NCBI GenBank assembly: GCA_012862575.1
Contig: BLSF01000053.1
Coordinates: 1-64,000, forward strand
Length of the DNA stretch: 64,000 nt
Origin: Parietichytrium sp. I65-24A
Taxonomy: Eukaryota > Sar > Bigyra > Thraustochytrida > Thraustochytriidae
Direction: 5' to 3'
Part shown: positions 21,644 to 31,055 of the stretch, one piece after another
Position numbering within the stretch: position 1 is the stretch's first letter
Layout: each line of letters begins with the position of its first letter
Program-made: the position numbers and the translations under genes
Notes under the pieces: model-generated
What the model saw: only the letters and a program-made list of their open reading frames with translations
Told to the model about the DNA's origin: nothing
Database searches by the model: none

Positions 21644-23758
21644 TTGTTGCAGCGCAAGAGCGCAGATCGGTTGTGTTTTATAGGAGATCATCGGTGTTCT
21701 GGAAGTGGACTTGTTGGCAGCAAAATGCACGACCCTGTGTACCTGGACTACAACGCCACCACGCCGCTGGACGAGCGGGTGGCGCGGCGAATGTGCGAGA
21801 TTCTACAACAACCTCAGAACAGCCCGGAGTCTTGTTTCGGGAATCCTTCGTCTGCTCACGTGTATGGGACCACTGCCAAAGCCGCACTGGAGACAGCGAG
21901 GGGCCAAGTCGCAAAGTGCATCGGGGCTCGTGATGCTAAAGAAGTTGTGTTCATGTCCGGCGGCACAGAGACCATCAATCACACGATCAAAGGGCTGTGC
22001 TTCAAATCTTTGCGGGAAGGGAAAGCGGCTGGGTCGAGCCAATGGAGGAATCACATTATCACGAGCGCGATCGAGCACGTTGCTGTAACGGAAACCATCG
22101 CGTACATGGTGGAGAATTTTGGATTCACGTGCACCGTACTCCCAGTGGACGAGCTCGCGTCCGTATCTGTGCAGTCGTTGCGCGACGCCATCACGCCACG
22201 AACTTTGCTTGTAACGATCATGACAGCAAACAACGAGGTGGGCACTGTTCAACCTGTGCGCGAAATCGTCCAGGCCGTTCGCGAAGCAGAGTCCGAGGGC
22301 CACAGGATTTTTGTACACTCTGATGCAAGCCAGGCCATCGGGAAGATTTCTGTCAACGTGGAAACTTTCGGAGTTGACTTTTTGACGGTCGCTGGCCATA
22401 AAATCTACGCTCCCAAGGGAATCGGGGCTCTGTTTATTCGGCAAGGCTGCGAGTCTGCGCTCGACAAATTTTGCCATGGTGCCAGCCATGAGTCAGGGCG
22501 CCGAGCTGGCACCGAAAATGTTTTGCTGGCGTGTGCCTTGGGCCAAGCATGCGAAATTATATCTCAGAGCCTCGACGAGGAGGAGGCTCGTCTTGGAAAC
22601 CTCCGGCGTAGACTATTGGAGCTGATCACCCAGTCACTCGATTCGGCTCTTATCCGGGTGAACGGAAACCCAAAAGCCTCTCTCCCGAATACCTTGTCCA
22701 TCTCATTCAGAAACTCGCTTTCGAATAGACTCCTGGACAAGTTGTCTGGCAAAGTCGCTTGCAGTGCTGGAGCGGCCTGTCATTCCTCCAGCGGTGCTCT
22801 TAGCGAATCACATGTGCTCAAAGCAATGGGGGTTCCCAAAGAATTTGCTCTTGGAACCTTACGGCTTTCTGTTGGCCGAATGACTTCGGTCGAAGACCTT
22901 GAGTTCGCCGCCAACTGCATCAAGAAAGCCGTAGAGGGGGCTTCGGCCACCGCAAGTGACTTGGAGAGCACGTCATTTGAAACAGAGTTGGAGTACTTCT
23001 GGGACACATACAAATTCAGTTCTACAGCGAACGTTATTCACGCAAGGCAGCCTACCGAAACTGATCGGATTGGTCGTGCAGGAAAAGAAGGCCACGACAC
23101 CTTCATAGTCACGTTAGACAAAACCATTTTCTATCCCCAAGGGGGCGGGCAACCGAGTGACACTGGTCGAATTCGCCAAGGCGATGTGGAGTTTGTCGTG
23201 CAGCATGTCGTCATGAAGGGTGAGGCAGTTGAGCATATTGGCTATTTCCAAGACTCCGCGAGATTTGAGCTTGGCGCGACAGCCGAATTGACCATTGACG
23301 AAGCGAGCAGGCGATATCACGCTAGGATCCACTCTGCGGGCCATCTCATAGATCAGGCAATGTCGGCGTGTGGGGTTGATCTTAGGGCCACCAAAGGTTG
23401 CCATTTCCCTTCTCTCGGCCCATCTGTGGAGTACGAGGGCACTCTCCCAGCGGACGAGCTTCCAAGCCTAAAAGAACGGCTTCAAGCGAAAATCGATGAA
23501 CTCATCGGTGCGGAGTTACCAACCAAAGTCTTCAGTGTTCCAGCCTCAGACGCTGCTCAGTATTGCATGGAGGGAGCTGCACCAGCAAACGCCGACCCAA
23601 GCGATAAGCAGCTCCGAATTGTTATCGTTGGCGGCGATAAAGGTTGTCCGTGTGGCGGGACGCATGTAACAAACACTGGTGAACTACGGCAGGTAGAGAT
23701 CAGAAAGCTGTCCAACAAAAAGGGCTCTCTTCGCGTTGCCTATCACGTTCCAGAGTGA
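21644..23758 (+). CDS. Selenocysteine lyase/cysteine desulfurase fused to AlaX-type tRNA-Ala editing domain
   Basis: Single exon, 704 aa from the first ATG. A second ATG at 21725 (residue 28) starts directly before the conserved VYLDYNATTPLD and may be the true start. Residues about 30-435 are a class V PLP enzyme: FMSGGTETIN, TANNEVGTVQPV, PLP lysine in TVAGHKIYAPKG (about residue 251), and active-site Cys in SAGAACHSSSG, then TLRLSVGR. The wording is closest to eukaryotic selenocysteine lyase. Residues about 460-704 are AlaX: FYPQGGGQPSDTG, the zinc motif HSAGH, and CGGTH in CPCGGTHV. All zinc ligands are present. The first domain makes L-alanine from (seleno)cysteine; the second would hydrolyse mischarged tRNA-Ala. 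No break or linker stop separates them. Confidence 0.88.
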   Translation: MLQRKSADRLCFIGDHRCSGSGLVGSKMHDPVYLDYNATTPLDERVARRMCEILQQPQNSPESCFGNPSSAHVYGTTAKAALETARGQVAKCIGARDAKEVVFMSGGTETINHTIKGLCFKSLREGKAAGSSQWRNHIITSAIEHVAVTETIAYMVENFGFTCTVLPVDELASVSVQSLRDAITPRTLLVTIMTANNEVGTVQPVREIVQAVREAESEGHRIFVHSDASQAIGKISVNVETFGVDFLTVAGHKIYAPKGIGALFIRQGCESALDKFCHGASHESGRRAGTENVLLACALGQACEIISQSLDEEEARLGNLRRRLLELITQSLDSALIRVNGNPKASLPNTLSISFRNSLSNRLLDKLSGKVACSAGAACHSSSGALSESHVLKAMGVPKEFALGTLRLSVGRMTSVEDLEFAANCIKKAVEGASATASDLESTSFETELEYFWDTYKFSSTANVIHARQPTETDRIGRAGKEGHDTFIVTLDKTIFYPQGGGQPSDTGRIRQGDVEFVVQHVVMKGEAVEHIGYFQDSARFELGATAELTIDEASRRYHARIHSAGHLIDQAMSACGVDLRATKGCHFPSLGPSVEYEGTLPADELPSLKERLQAKIDELIGAELPTKVFSVPASDAAQYCMEGAAPANADPSDKQLRIVIVGGDKGCPCGGTHVTNTGELRQVEIRKLSNKKGSLRVAYHVPE

Positions 23759-24863: not shown

Positions 24864-27800
24864 ATGGACGAGCACTTTGGGGCGCGGGGAAATGAAGAGC
24901 TCGATCACGGCTGGATCAGTTCTTTAGCGCGTGGGTTTGCAAAGTTTAAAGATGGTTTTCATGGTGTGCTGTTCTTGATCTCCAAGAAGGGCTCACACTC
25001 GATGCGCGCTACTATACTCCTTGCGATCCTCGACACCATGCAGCTGACAGGCTATGCAATTCCGAAGAAAGCCTTGGAGGCTTACAACTTTCCTTACATA
25101 TTCCAAGTTTTTGCGCAAGCCTTCTCCTACACGGCCTTTGGCAGCTTGATCGTGCAAGCCCTCGGCCTTCTCGTCGCAACAATCATTGTGCTGCTCGCGG
25201 TGGCACTTCAGCTGGCCAACCTCTTTTACGTTGGCCGCGCATGGGTCAACAAGGCTTTCTCAAGTATTATGGCTGTTCGCGTGCTCCGCTGGACGACGTC
25301 CGCGATGGTTGGCTTGTTGTACATCCCTATGCTCAACATCCTTCTACTCTTCCTCAACTCGTGCGAGTTTTCTTTCTCAACGTCGACGGCTTGCGCTGTG
25401 ATGGTCGCTCCGATTTCAATCGTTGCTGTCTTTTTCGTGTGCTTCTCCCTCGTGGTTTGCATTTCATTTTTCAACTCGTATCCCCTAGCAGGGAGCCCTG
25501 CTGCTCGGCCACACTCACGAGTTTCATTTGCCCACCTTGCCTGCAAAACCATTTTGGTGACAACGTCGACGCTGACCACGCTTATGAAAGAATCCACCAT
25601 CATCTGGGCATCTCTGGTTCTCGTGCTTGGGGTCGGCCTGTTCGGCCTCTACGTCTGGTTTTTACCATTCTACAGCCAGCAGATGTGCTTGATCAAGGCA
25701 ATGTCCACGGCCTTTTTTACGTGGTTTGCACTGTGCGGTCTGGCTCACGTTGCCACAGACGCCACCGAGCATGTTGCAACCGTCCTGCTTTTCACTGGAC
25801 TTCCTATTGTTCTGTTGCTGACTTTCCTGCTTGTGCACTACAGAAAGCAGGAGCTTCTCGACAGAAAGTGGGAGGAAGTTTCGGGACCGTTCGAAGCAGA
25901 GCTCAAAGCAAGGCTGGTTCTCCAGGGCGTTGGCCGCTCCTATGTGAACATCGCAAACTGCGAGCGAAGTGAGATTGAGGACCGCATAGCTCAAGTGACT
26001 GAAGCTTTCGAGATACTCAAAGATAGGTTTGACACGTCAGCCGTGATGGCAGTATTCATAGCGGAGTTTTACTTGGCATTTGCCAAAAAACACAAGACAT
26101 TGTTGGCAAGGAAAGCACTTATGGACGCCAATGAACAAGGGGCGCCGATTGACTTTGAATTCATCATTCTGAAGAAGCGCCAGGTTATCCAGGAACTCAC
26201 ACAGACCAAGGAGACCGACATACTCAAATACGTCATGAGTGAAAAGTACAAGCGCGAGGCCACGGAGGAGGATCGGCTGTGCTGTACGACATTGCTCGAC
26301 CTCTGGAACGAGTTGCTCAATGAGCACCCAAATCTGGCAAAAATCCGCCTCTTAACGACAGTTTTCGGGAAACACTCTGCGAGCGCCATTCAAGCGTACA
26401 AGAAATTATTGAAGGTATCGTCGCGGTCATCCTACGTCTACGAGCTTTACGGCAGTTTTTTGCTCGACGTGGTGAATGACCGGGCTGCGGGCGAGCCGCT
26501 GCTTATCCGCGCGAATCGGCTGCAAGAAGCCGAGGCTGTAAAGTCTCTGCAAGATTCGGACGATGAATTAACACTCAAGTCCCAGGATGGGTCCTCTGCG
26601 GCTGTTTTAGTGATTCGGGTCGAAGGCGAAAAGAACGACATTGGCGACATTGTTTCCGCGAACGAGCGAGCTCGCGGGGTTTTAAATGCCTTCAATCACG
26701 TTCTTGTTGGCCGCAACATACACTCTGTCTTTCTGCCACCGCTTTCCACCCGGTTCACCGAGGAAATTAACAAGTACTTTTGTTCTGGATCGTCAGTTTT
26801 GTTCAACCACAAAATCGAGACGTTCTGCAAAACGGTACAAGGAAGCCTCGTACCAATCTCTGTTCGCTTCAACCCTTTCACATTCAATGGCTTTGACTAC
26901 AGTGTCTACGCAATCTTCACTGACCGTCTGGATACGAGTGAGCCATACTTGATTGCTGACGAGCGTGGGGCCATCCTTGGGTGTACGCAAGCCTTTACGC
27001 TGTTTCTCGACCAGCTTTCGGGAGCACATGACCTTGGCGAACTTCGTTTCAGTGCGACTACCAAGCTGCAGAGTCTTATTGAGAATTTTGATTTGCTTCG
27101 GGAGAAATTTTGCGACCCAGCCGGCTCACCTGGACGGATTTGTCTTTCGAATACTGCAAGAGGTTTATCAGGCAGCGCTGGAGCTGACAAGTCGGATCAA
27201 GAGTGGATTCGCGTCCCAAACATCAAGATCAAGACGCTCGTCTCTCTACCCGGCGAGCCTCCCCTTCTGCAAGTCATATTTCCTGAACCGACGTTCTCTG
27301 TGAGTGATGGGGAGAGTCTCGAGGATCAAATGGGTCTTGACAATTCTAGTCTACAGCAGTACCCTTCGGATGTTGAAAACATGACAAGGGATAAAGACTT
27401 GAGCTGTAAGAGCGAAGCAATATCACAGTCCGCATCCCCAGTCCATATGTCTATGAAACGCGCCAGCAGGCTGGGGAACACGGTTAAAATGGACCTTCCC
27501 GGCCGACCGCCATCTTTAGCGCCATCGCACGACTCTGGGGCAAGTCGACAGACAGGAAGTTCGATCACGGCAACCCTGAAGCGCCTCGTGATGGAGCGCA
27601 CAAATAAGGACATGAGCCCAAGTCTGAAGCGAATGCGAAGAATTTACGGCATCGCAGTCACCTTTACAATTCTGATATTCGTCATCAAACGAGTCGCAGA
27701 GGCAAACTCGTTGGAGCGGTTTCAAGCAACGGTTTCCATGGTGCTTCTGGCTGGCTACAGACGGTTTTGCGCCGCGTCCATAGCTTACAACACTCACTCT

Positions 27801-29504
27801 CTGCTGCACAACTCCACAGATCCCACGGAGGTGGATCTTCTACAGGACCTAATCCACTTTTATGCAGACGAGCTGCGAACCACCGAGAAAGAGCTGTACA
27901 ACAACCGCGCCGGGTACTCTGATGAATTGAAGGTGTACTATGAGGAACCTTGCGTCGAAGGGCTCAGAATGAGAGAGGGGGATGCCCAAAACACGAATTT
28001 GTCGCTCTTTGACATGTCTATGCTTTTTGCGTCTTCAGCAGATCGTGTCGCGAGCACTTTGTCGACAAATCTTGACCTTGATGCCTCAGAGACATACTTT
28101 GTTGTCGCCAACGCTGAGCCGGAGACAAGCTACATGAACGCATTCGTACACACCACAGAGCTCTACGTGCAGTACGCAAATGATTATGTCGACTCCATGG
28201 TGTACCTCGCCAACATTTTGATTGGAATTGGTCTGGGAACGACAGTATTGCTGCTCACAATATCGCTCATCCCGTTGTATCACGCGACTCGAGAGATCGA
28301 GATCAACAAAGAGGAGGTTCTGCAAGTCTTTTTGAGTATTGAGCCGGGGACTGCCAAGTTGATCTCCAACACGTTCGTGTCGCGCCTGCGAGATTATCAC
28401 AAGCAAGATTGGGAAACCGGTGTGGCAGATGCAGTCGCCTCTCCAAACTCGAGCGGAGGTATCGAAGAGATCGGGATTAAAGGAGCTGACCCGGCGACAA
28501 AGTCCCCGCCAAAGAACCCCTCAAAGACCAAGATGCGGAAAATCTTTCCGGTGCATGGCGCTGCAAATGTTCGGCCGAAGAAAAGCTCCAAGAGACGTGT
28601 TGGTGCTGAAAGAACTCTTCTCGAGCGGCACCAGGGGATGCTGGTCTTCTTTTTAAAGATGGCGCTTATTTTGGCTTTAAGTGTGGTGTATTTTCTGGCC
28701 TCATCTCTGCTTCGCCAAGATGCACTGGTCGTATTCCTCAACAATGCGGCAAGGGAGGCAGCGTTTGCGAGTTTTCAGAAATCGCTTGTCCGGCAGTCAA
28801 TTCACAAGTTGCGCGTTCTGAACGACCCTGATATTTACACAAAAGTAAGCTCCAAGTCTCGAGAGGAGCAAATTCTGGATGCGAATGCTTTGCTGGAACA
28901 TCTCGACCAGGTCCACTCTGCCTTGCTGTACGGTAGCGCAGAGTACGATCTTCTTGGTCTCCTCCAGTACGAAGCAACCCAGCAAGATCCTGAAAGCTTG
29001 TACCTAAACTTGGAGAGCGGGTGTGACGGGTGGAACGACACCAACGTATTCAACCGCACTGCGGCGGATTGTGAGACCGTGGAGTCTGGGGCCATGAATG
29101 GCGGCTTGCATGCCGTTATTTTAGAGTTTGGAAGCAGGATGACAAAGCTTTTGTCAAGAAACACCTCGCTAGAAGGCGAGCAACTTGTTTCCCTTGAGCT
29201 ACTGGAAAAGGAGTTTCTACAGCCACAATTGAGTCACGCAACAGACGTGCGATCAGAGTCCCTAAACTCGCGATTCGCCACTAATAAAAGTCTCCAGGGA
29301 TCTCTCCTGGCGGTCTATGGGACCGTCATTGCGTTTCTGCTCTTATTCGTTGCAAATCCTATGATCTCGGCACTCGACCAGAACGCCAAGAATACTACGG
29401 CTCTTTTGCTCAACATCCCGGAAGAGGTTATCGAAACGCTGCCTCTCGCGTGTGCTCACTTAAAGAAGCTCTCTATTGAGCACCGCATGGTAACCCGAAA
29501 GTAG
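24864..29504 (+). CDS. TmcB-like multi-pass membrane protein with PAS domain
   Basis: Single exon, 1546 aa. About seven hydrophobic segments fill residues 45-325 (for example VQALGLLVATIIVLLAVAL and IWASLVLVLGVGLFGLYVW). A soluble helical region (about 340-560) contains the phrase KKLLKVSSRSSYVYELYGSFLLDV, as in the TPR-like part of TmcB/TmcC family proteins. A PAS-like domain follows (about 575-800, IVSANERARGVLNAF). Four further membrane segments near residues 925, 1120, 1270 and 1490 bracket two probable extracellular helical domains. No cyclase or kinase is present. Such proteins occur widely in protists as putative sensors; role here unknown. There is an upstream in-frame region without stop-free extension, so the ATG at 24864 is preferred. 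Confidence 0.75.
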   Translation: MDEHFGARGNEELDHGWISSLARGFAKFKDGFHGVLFLISKKGSHSMRATILLAILDTMQLTGYAIPKKALEAYNFPYIFQVFAQAFSYTAFGSLIVQALGLLVATIIVLLAVALQLANLFYVGRAWVNKAFSSIMAVRVLRWTTSAMVGLLYIPMLNILLLFLNSCEFSFSTSTACAVMVAPISIVAVFFVCFSLVVCISFFNSYPLAGSPAARPHSRVSFAHLACKTILVTTSTLTTLMKESTIIWASLVLVLGVGLFGLYVWFLPFYSQQMCLIKAMSTAFFTWFALCGLAHVATDATEHVATVLLFTGLPIVLLLTFLLVHYRKQELLDRKWEEVSGPFEAELKARLVLQGVGRSYVNIANCERSEIEDRIAQVTEAFEILKDRFDTSAVMAVFIAEFYLAFAKKHKTLLARKALMDANEQGAPIDFEFIILKKRQVIQELTQTKETDILKYVMSEKYKREATEEDRLCCTTLLDLWNELLNEHPNLAKIRLLTTVFGKHSASAIQAYKKLLKVSSRSSYVYELYGSFLLDVVNDRAAGEPLLIRANRLQEAEAVKSLQDSDDELTLKSQDGSSAAVLVIRVEGEKNDIGDIVSANERARGVLNAFNHVLVGRNIHSVFLPPLSTRFTEEINKYFCSGSSVLFNHKIETFCKTVQGSLVPISVRFNPFTFNGFDYSVYAIFTDRLDTSEPYLIADERGAILGCTQAFTLFLDQLSGAHDLGELRFSATTKLQSLIENFDLLREKFCDPAGSPGRICLSNTARGLSGSAGADKSDQEWIRVPNIKIKTLVSLPGEPPLLQVIFPEPTFSVSDGESLEDQMGLDNSSLQQYPSDVENMTRDKDLSCKSEAISQSASPVHMSMKRASRLGNTVKMDLPGRPPSLAPSHDSGASRQTGSSITATLKRLVMERTNKDMSPSLKRMRRIYGIAVTFTILIFVIKRVAEANSLERFQATVSMVLLAGYRRFCAASIAYNTHSLLHNSTDPTEVDLLQDLIHFYADELRTTEKELYNNRAGYSDELKVYYEEPCVEGLRMREGDAQNTNLSLFDMSMLFASSADRVASTLSTNLDLDASETYFVVANAEPETSYMNAFVHTTELYVQYANDYVDSMVYLANILIGIGLGTTVLLLTISLIPLYHATREIEINKEEVLQVFLSIEPGTAKLISNTFVSRLRDYHKQDWETGVADAVASPNSSGGIEEIGIKGADPATKSPPKNPSKTKMRKIFPVHGAANVRPKKSSKRRVGAERTLLERHQGMLVFFLKMALILALSVVYFLASSLLRQDALVVFLNNAAREAAFASFQKSLVRQSIHKLRVLNDPDIYTKVSSKSREEQILDANALLEHLDQVHSALLYGSAEYDLLGLLQYEATQQDPESLYLNLESGCDGWNDTNVFNRTAADCETVESGAMNGGLHAVILEFGSRMTKLLSRNTSLEGEQLVSLELLEKEFLQPQLSHATDVRSESLNSRFATNKSLQGSLLAVYGTVIAFLLLFVANPMISALDQNAKNTTALLLNIPEEVIETLPLACAHLKKLSIEHRMVTRK

Positions 29505-29839: not shown

Positions 29840-31055
29840 TTACCTCGGCGTCTCCGTGTCCAAGAGCTCCGTTTGGGCTTCCGCCGCCCTGCTTTCTCCA
29901 CTCGCCACCTGCGGCTCAGCAGCAATTTGCTCCCTAAGCTTGTTGTTTTCTTTAGCTTCTGGTGTAGGTGTTGAACAGAGCTCCACTGTGTGAACGACTA
30001 AAACCCGGTCCGCAGCGTGGGGCGAGAACCTAATTTTGAAGTTGTCGAAATCGAGCACAAAGTTGTCCCTGAACAGATGCTCCTTGAGTACAGGGGATTC
30101 CTATCTTCTCCAGGGCGTCGCTGTTGGCGGCGTCGCTTTCTTCTGCGTCCGCCTTGGGGCTGTTTGCAGCGTCGTTGCATTCCACAGAGTCCTCGGCATC
30201 CACATTGGCTGCACTGTAGACTCCACGCCCGTGAATCACCCCTCGGGGATCGAGGGACACAATTTGCTCCACCGCTTGGCACAGCTCGTCCACTTCATCC
30301 CGGGCGAACCACTTGGACTTGCCCCCACGAGCGAAATTTTCCAAGTTGGCTCTGGCCTCGTCGGTGAACTGGACCACCGCGAGCTCAAATTTCTCGTTCT
30401 GCACCCACTCTGCCATTTGTGGATCAAGTGGTGTGTCGACATGCGGGACATAGGGCTTGATGTCCAACACCGGCGTGCCGTCGATGAGATCCACGCCTCG
30501 AAAGTGAACGATGCCTTTGTTCACATCCACTTTGTCCAGCTTGATGAGCGACAGCCCCACCGGGTTGGGTCTGTGCGGCGTCCTAGTTGCAAAGAGCCCC
30601 ACCCTGATGCCCCCGCCCTGAGGTGGCTTTACGAACGACGGGAAGATCTTCTTCTGCTTGGGCTTGTCCGCGCTCGTGACGAGTTTATGCATGTTGGTGT
30701 TTTCATGAAACACGAACAGGACCCACGCGTGGCTAAAGTCCCCGAGGCCTTGGAGCGACTGATTCCCCACCACCGACCTATCCAACCTAACGCGGCCCCT
30801 GCTCAGCGTGGCCAGCGATCCCTGTCTCGGGGTTCCAAACCGCGTCGGGAAGCAGCTTTCCATCTTGCCGATCGGCTTGAGCGCGCCAAGTCCTGCAGTT
30901 TCCGCAACGAACTCCTCCCGTAGCCGTTTCTCGGCGTTGGTTCTCCCGGCCGTTTCGAACTGCAGCCTCTCTCGCAGCCTTTTGTTCTCGGCCTCGAGGG
31001 CCGCCAGTCTAGCTTCCATTGTGCCAATGGCCTTGCGCAGCATAGACAGCAACAA
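29840..31055 (-). CDS. TRMO: tRNA (adenine37-N6)-methyltransferase, TrmO/TRMO family; apparent one-base frameshift
   Basis: The N-terminus (residues 1-50) is a coiled coil (MEARLAALEAENKRLRERL). The TrmO barrel follows: PIGKMESCFPTRFGTPRQG, FSHAWVLFVFHENTN, TRTPHRPNPVGLSLIKLDKV and DGTPVLDIKPYVPHVD, all close to metazoan TRMO. An acidic linker leads to a C4 run (minus strand, 30093-30096). The frame as given then ends at 30030 with an unlike tail. With one base fewer in that run the frame continues as PVLKEHLFRDNFVLDFDNFK to a stop at 29840, giving 404 aa with a normal C-terminus. This is either a sequencing/assembly error or a recent frameshift. The enzyme methylates t6A37 of tRNAs using SAM. 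The start could also be the Met at 31019. Confidence 0.88.

Follow-up and report, generated by a model that had tools for sequence, protein, structure and literature searches.

Parietichytrium sp. I65-24A encodes, in one uninterrupted reading frame, a desulfurase of the NifS-type superfamily followed by an AlaX-type tRNA editing domain. The frame lies in what we call the window, the whole analysed stretch of 64,000 nucleotides (positions 1 to 64,000 of contig BLSF01000053.1, forward strand), in a genome of 42.5 Mb and 172 contigs. The desulfurase-AlaX fusion is real, as both domains occupy the same frame. Each half belongs to a known family, and it is the joining of the two that was not found elsewhere in the collections searched. 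Judging from its sequence, we consider it probable that the protein is a bifunctional enzyme, in which a selenium-delivering selenocysteine (Sec) lyase/desulfurase is combined with an active AlaX deacylase.

One reading frame for two enzymes

The fusion protein has 677 residues (Table 1), on which Pfam placed three domains above cut-off: Aminotran_5 (5.7e-60), the tail of tRNA-synt_2c (1.1e-11) and tRNA_SAD (1.2e-6). Together with a continuous codon signal, these matches confirm the original prediction both in its claim of a single uninterrupted frame with both enzymes and in the names it gave to the two domains. The catalytic Lys and Cys and the AlaX zinc ligands that it listed are likewise present, by alignment, as Lys226, Cys352, HSAGH (536-540) and CGGTH (643-647). 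Its start at 21644 needed correction. That codon is TTG, which is accepted as a start under table 11; the first in-frame ATG is at 21725, and a sequence scan found no in-frame ATG between the upstream stop and this position.

The coding signal runs through the junction. A codon score trained on five other long frames in the window, two of them without a Pfam match, is positive in the fusion frame and higher there than in either remaining forward frame throughout the 12 scoring intervals between 21700 and 23649, junction included, with the narrowest margin (0.11 against 0.08) at 23050-23349. The two competing frames are interrupted by 16 and 25 stops, and none of the four donor hexamers looked for occurs within the fusion frame. 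No Met is present between residues 386 and 497, so an AlaX half made on its own could be intact only if translation began at Met386 or at a codon other than ATG. It is extremely unlikely that assembly or annotation has joined two genes here, given halves that are in frame without a stop, a continuous codon signal and a linker of about 14 residues with no AlaX start codon inside.

Upstream lie genes for a ribosomal protein of the L23 type and for an LSM protein; the next gene downstream encodes a TmcB-type protein, and a PP2A B56 subunit follows at a greater distance. These neighbours are eukaryotic, which makes a bacterial contaminant contig unlikely. A search for light-harvesting proteins gave no match. 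About 6 kb from the fusion gene lies a frame with a TrmO-type tRNA methyltransferase domain, and its nearness is probably a coincidence. The fusion gene is additional to the genome's AlaRS, ThrRS and NFS1 genes and to one other AlaX-like gene. Reading of translations identified two AlaRS-like and two ThrRS-like genes, a canonical NFS1 (L008) groups with human NFS1 at 100/98 in the tree, and a second AlaX-like protein (L004, G000:C66:48916-52047) carries a tRNA_SAD domain. This second protein also has a low-complexity stretch rich in Asp, Ala and Asn.

Table 1. Features of the fusion gene and its downstream neighbours, in positions of the window.
Feature	Position	Strand	Basis
Fusion protein coding frame	21725..23758	+	677 aa, ATG to TGA, no internal stop
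Desulfurase / Sec lyase domain (Aminotran_5, residues 5-393)	21737..22903	+	Pfam 5.7e-60, tree, motifs
Lys226, aligned with PLP lysine of human SCLY and NFS1	22400..22402	+	alignment columns
Cys352-His353, aligned with Cys388-His389 of human SCLY	22778..22783	+	alignment columns
Linker, about residues 405-418, about 14 residues, without assigned homology	22937..22978	+	domain borders, sequence
AlaX-M-type domain, residues 419-677	22979..23755	+	Pfam tRNA-synt_2c 419-526, tRNA_SAD 630-670; model, fold match
GGGQ motif, residues 473-476	23141..23152	+	invariant in 35 aligned AlaX rows
HSAGH, presumed zinc ligands His536, His540	23330..23344	+	alignment, position
CGGTH, presumed zinc ligands Cys643, His647	23651..23665	+	alignment, position
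Frame directly downstream, 1546 aa, with TmcB TPR domain	24864-29504	+	
TrmO-type tRNA methyltransferase domain	30033-31043	-	PF01980, 3.6e-36

The fusion was sought in prokaryote, plasmid, phage and viral sequences and was not found. No match listed for the 1,338 different prokaryote genomes sampled extends over both halves. The set comprised 16 genomes searched at E <=1e-3 and phylum samples of 398, 286, 297 and 151 genomes at E <=1e-75 and of 195 at 1e-60, with five centre genomes common to both sets. The two best candidates per genome were scored in the 398-genome sample and up to 4-6 in the others; the 151-genome sample gave no match of any kind and is therefore uninformative on the fusion. 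Among 72,556 plasmid and 50,697 phage records, no place covers 80% of the fusion protein. In viral contigs the AlaX half as query gave no match, and the whole protein as query matched three loci in the desulfurase half only. A literature search for a desulfurase or Sec lyase with AlaX or tRNA editing found no such fusion among the matches listed, and the words 'alanyl' and 'desulfurase' are both absent from the main text of an oomycete fusion survey (PMC2705460). The sequence searches covered prokaryotes, plasmids, phages and viral contigs, and the fusion may be common to other protists while having gone unremarked in databases.

Kinship of the desulfurase half and the selenium machinery

The N-terminal half has the marks of the NifS-type superfamily of PLP desulfurases and Sec lyases, namely the Aminotran_5 domain, a predicted PLP lysine (Lys226) and a predicted catalytic cysteine (Cys352). 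The protein scores below the NCBIfam cut-off in every family matched (NifS, 352.6 against 530.75; SclA, 81.6 against 525). What this half matches best, in two phylum samples, is a set of prokaryotic proteins that join a desulfurase to SelD. By tblastn, SelD lies in the same frame in 14 of the 15 best rows (nine and six rows from the two samples); in the remaining row, L107, the contig ends just after SelD-like sequence, as judged by eye, starts. Pfam confirmed four of the 14 fusions (L106, L108-L111, L114-L119 and L126-L128), with AIRS and AIRS_C after Aminotran_5. No SelD match was found in nine lower-ranking fetched loci of the same two samples (L120-L125, L129, L130, L133). SelD fusions thus make up 14 of the 34 prokaryotic desulfurase loci that were fetched, a set selected for good matching rather than sampled randomly. 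All 14 come from the phylum samples of an Acidobacteriota-titled and a Heimdallarchaeota-titled genome. Very few such fusions in prokaryotes are in print, as far as the consulted portions of two papers go, one giving two instances (PMC4561486) and the other Geobacter only (PMC2398784).

In the tree, the fusion protein lies inside a 22-row clade (support 100/99) in which every member has His after the catalytic cysteine (Cys-His); the remaining 15 rows, which include NFS1 and IscS-like sequences, have Ser or Thr in place of this His. The clade holds all 14 SelD-fused rows, which account for 14 of the 21 partners of the fusion protein, the other seven having no detected SelD (one is cut by its contig). 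Two other of the longest rows, S_L068 and human SCLY, are omitted from this tree; human SCLY, when included, joins just outside the clade as the outermost row (94/84, not starred). Placing the fusion protein with the NFS1 group, which was named after the first tree had been seen, costs 24 log units (p-AU 0.002). On this sequence evidence, the desulfurase half falls outside the NFS1/IscS enzymes. The branch of the fusion protein is long (1.3), which leaves its place inside the 22-row clade unsure, and because of this long branch and the seven partners without detected SelD, kinship falls short of establishing a role in selenium metabolism.

Specificity for Sec in human SCLY has been traced to Asp146, Val256 and His389, and changing the first of these to Lys brought a gain of cysteine desulfurase activity, according to the part of the study available to us (PMC3266270). 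At the same three positions the fusion protein has Val119, Ala223 and His353, keeping only the His of the SCLY triad; the 14 SelD-fused rows have Pro/Ala/His and NFS1 has Lys/Ser/Thr. The absence of Lys at the first determinant is consistent with a selenium role, with the proviso that the published substitution covers Lys and not Val. Mammalian SCLY (3gzc / 3a9x) resembles the fusion protein in having Cys-His at the catalytic cysteine, but differs in the first two determinants (Asp/Val against Val/Ala) and in the absence of an AlaX domain from its solved chains. NFS1 and IscS share the superfamily and its PLP chemistry with the fusion protein, which is 38% identical to the genome's own NFS1, but their determinants differ (Lys/Ser/Cys-Thr in NFS1) and they form a separate clade. 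The SelD fusions are closer, as the desulfurase half is 46-51% identical (tblastn) to most of the 14 and has the Cys-His motif and the Ala at the second determinant in common with all of them. They differ in that SelD follows the desulfurase there and AlaX here, with no AIRS domain in the fusion protein and SelD a separate protein in this genome, and in having Pro rather than Val at the first determinant. Desulfurase homology starts at residue 3-5 of the fusion protein, too early for a targeting peptide to precede it unless a 5' exon was missed, and this suggests a cytosolic location.

The genome contains a single match to SelD (G000:C58:271667-272608, L112), a tRNA-Sec with anticodon tca, and SepSecS. 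Its SelD is preceded in the same protein by a pyridine nucleotide-disulphide oxidoreductase domain and, by eye, is the Cys form. Both oxidoreductase-SelD and NifS-SelD fusions are already in print (PMC4561486, PMC2398784). In the excerpts consulted, the same two papers report NifS-SelD from Geobacter, Acanthamoeba and Naegleria and explain the protist copies by transfer from bacteria; a passage of another paper mentions it for Spironucleus (PMC6006210), and part of a study of T. brucei describes selenophosphate synthetase bound by SCLY (PMC7595633). Given this binding, the SelD-fused kin and the presence of SelD, SepSecS and tRNA-Sec, a selenium-donating desulfurase that acts in trans on SelD is a natural reading.

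The AlaX half and its relatives

By sequence and model, the AlaX half is complete. It has the HxxxH and CxxxH ligands and GGGQ of AlaX-M, as well as all 17 positions that are invariant in 35 aligned rows. The presumed zinc ligands are themselves not universal in these rows, as L023 and L024 are without the first His and L064 is without the Cys and the last His. We modelled this half with its own relatives because joint alignments misplaced the AlaX rows or, when reweighted, the desulfurase rows. From a 31-row alignment that left out L064 and three plasmid rows, AlphaFold returned a model with a mean pLDDT of 92.6, which matches AlaRS editing regions and has the predicted AlaX-M fold (TM by target 0.83 to 2e1b and 0.85 to 9iuw). 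In a full-length model built with desulfurase rows only, the AlaX half is poor (pLDDT mostly <50), and we make no claim on inter-domain geometry.

Among the matches listed, the sequences nearest to the AlaX half are bacterial and archaeal AlaX proteins, at <=44% identity, and the AlaX tree places it in a 26-row clade (97/99) without a resolved sister. Its score against the NCBIfam AlaXM family (NF040865), 96.7 bits, is below the curated cut-off of 300. The likeness to AlaX-M (2e1b, 9iuw) and bacterial AlaX extends over the whole domain, its motifs and its fold, but those proteins are free-standing, whereas here AlaX is the C-terminal half of a desulfurase. AlaX is also free-standing in Leishmania, in the portion of a survey that we consulted (PMC3532385). 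Among the best matches listed, AlaX of the fusion's type is frequent under small-genome (Patescibacteria-type) titles (L020, L022-L024, L027, L030, L033, L034, L036-L038, L041, L046).

The sections consulted of one paper give Ser-tRNA-Ala and Gly-tRNA-Ala as the known substrates of AlaX-M enzymes and describe an AlaX-like arm on malaria TrpRS, which is proposed for binding and has lost the HxxxH and CxxxH ligands (PMC3680381). Malaria TrpRS resembles the fusion protein in that an AlaX-like domain is joined to another enzyme in a protist, but the partner is a different one and the ligands lost there are kept here. Since the ligands, the 17 invariant positions and the AlaX-M fold are all kept, unlike in the malaria arm, the AlaX half is probably an active deacylase.

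Possible roles of the joined enzymes

In the bifunctional reading that we favour, the N-terminal half would act as a PLP-dependent Cys-His-type selenocysteine lyase/desulfurase and load Cys352 with selenium taken from Sec, perhaps also with sulfur taken from cysteine. From there, selenium would pass to the cell's separate oxidoreductase-SelD protein and into Sec synthesis. The C-terminal zinc AlaX-M half would remove Ser or Gly, and possibly other small residues, from mischarged tRNA. We infer both activities, the delivery of selenium in trans and any benefit from joining the halves; with a single copy known from a single genome, selection for the join would be conjectural.

A serious competitor, to which we give a little less than an even chance, is that unrelated activities were joined by chance and that the join is tolerated, with the two halves uncoupled. 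The relatives of the two halves point this way: a desulfurase match occurs in 3 of the 80 best AlaX loci of the longer list, none of them joined or next to AlaX in frame, and an AlaX match occurs in none of the 34 fetched prokaryotic desulfurase loci. That both halves are intact in one frame argues for some use of each, though not for their coupling. It is unlikely that the AlaX half merely binds tRNA and so brings the selenium donor near the tRNA-bound steps of Sec synthesis. The malaria arm is a precedent for such binding (PMC3680381, in the sections cited above), but that arm is without ligands, whereas the fusion protein keeps all four together with the 17 invariant positions.

A further role, distinctly unlikely in our view, is that the AlaX half strips Sec (for example from Sec-tRNA-Cys) or Ser from mischarged tRNA and that the lyase half then destroys the freed Sec and passes its selenium to SelD. 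The two activities would run consecutively within one chain, in a genome that makes and uses Sec, and Sec-tRNA-Cys is documented in E. coli, in the part of the report consulted (PMC3636253). Against this stand the Ser- and Gly-tRNA-Ala substrates known for AlaX-M (PMC3680381, as above). No sequence feature of the fusion protein indicates another substrate for its AlaX half, and a SelD match is absent from all of the 80 best AlaX loci of the longer list.

Desulfurases of the NifS-type superfamily supply tRNA thiolation, and the protein might thus be a desulfurase for thiolation or for Fe-S clusters that is tied to tRNA through AlaX. We regard this as very unlikely and reject the thiolation role raised by the original prediction, because the NFS1/IscS grouping is rejected by the test given above, the Lys/Ser/Thr determinants of NFS1 are absent and the genome has a separate NFS1. 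A coupling of alanine release to tRNA-Ala quality control, also part of that prediction, was rejected as well, with nothing found in its favour; to our knowledge every enzyme of this desulfurase class releases alanine, so the release is not evidence for such a link. Its selenium side, by comparison, gains support from nearest desulfurase kin that are SelD-fused and from a genome with SelD, SepSecS and tRNA-Sec.

In the fusion, a likely donor of selenium is physically joined to an enzyme that proof-reads tRNA, which opens to direct test the question of whether cells that use Sec possess a dedicated mechanism for keeping other tRNAs free of it. If the protein does clear Sec from tRNA, this would be a translational defence against the replacement of Cys by Sec. 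Should the halves work independently, the fusion would still suggest that a desulfurase of the kind found joined to SelD is able to switch partners, and the gene would offer a natural construct for assaying selenium release and tRNA deacylation side by side.
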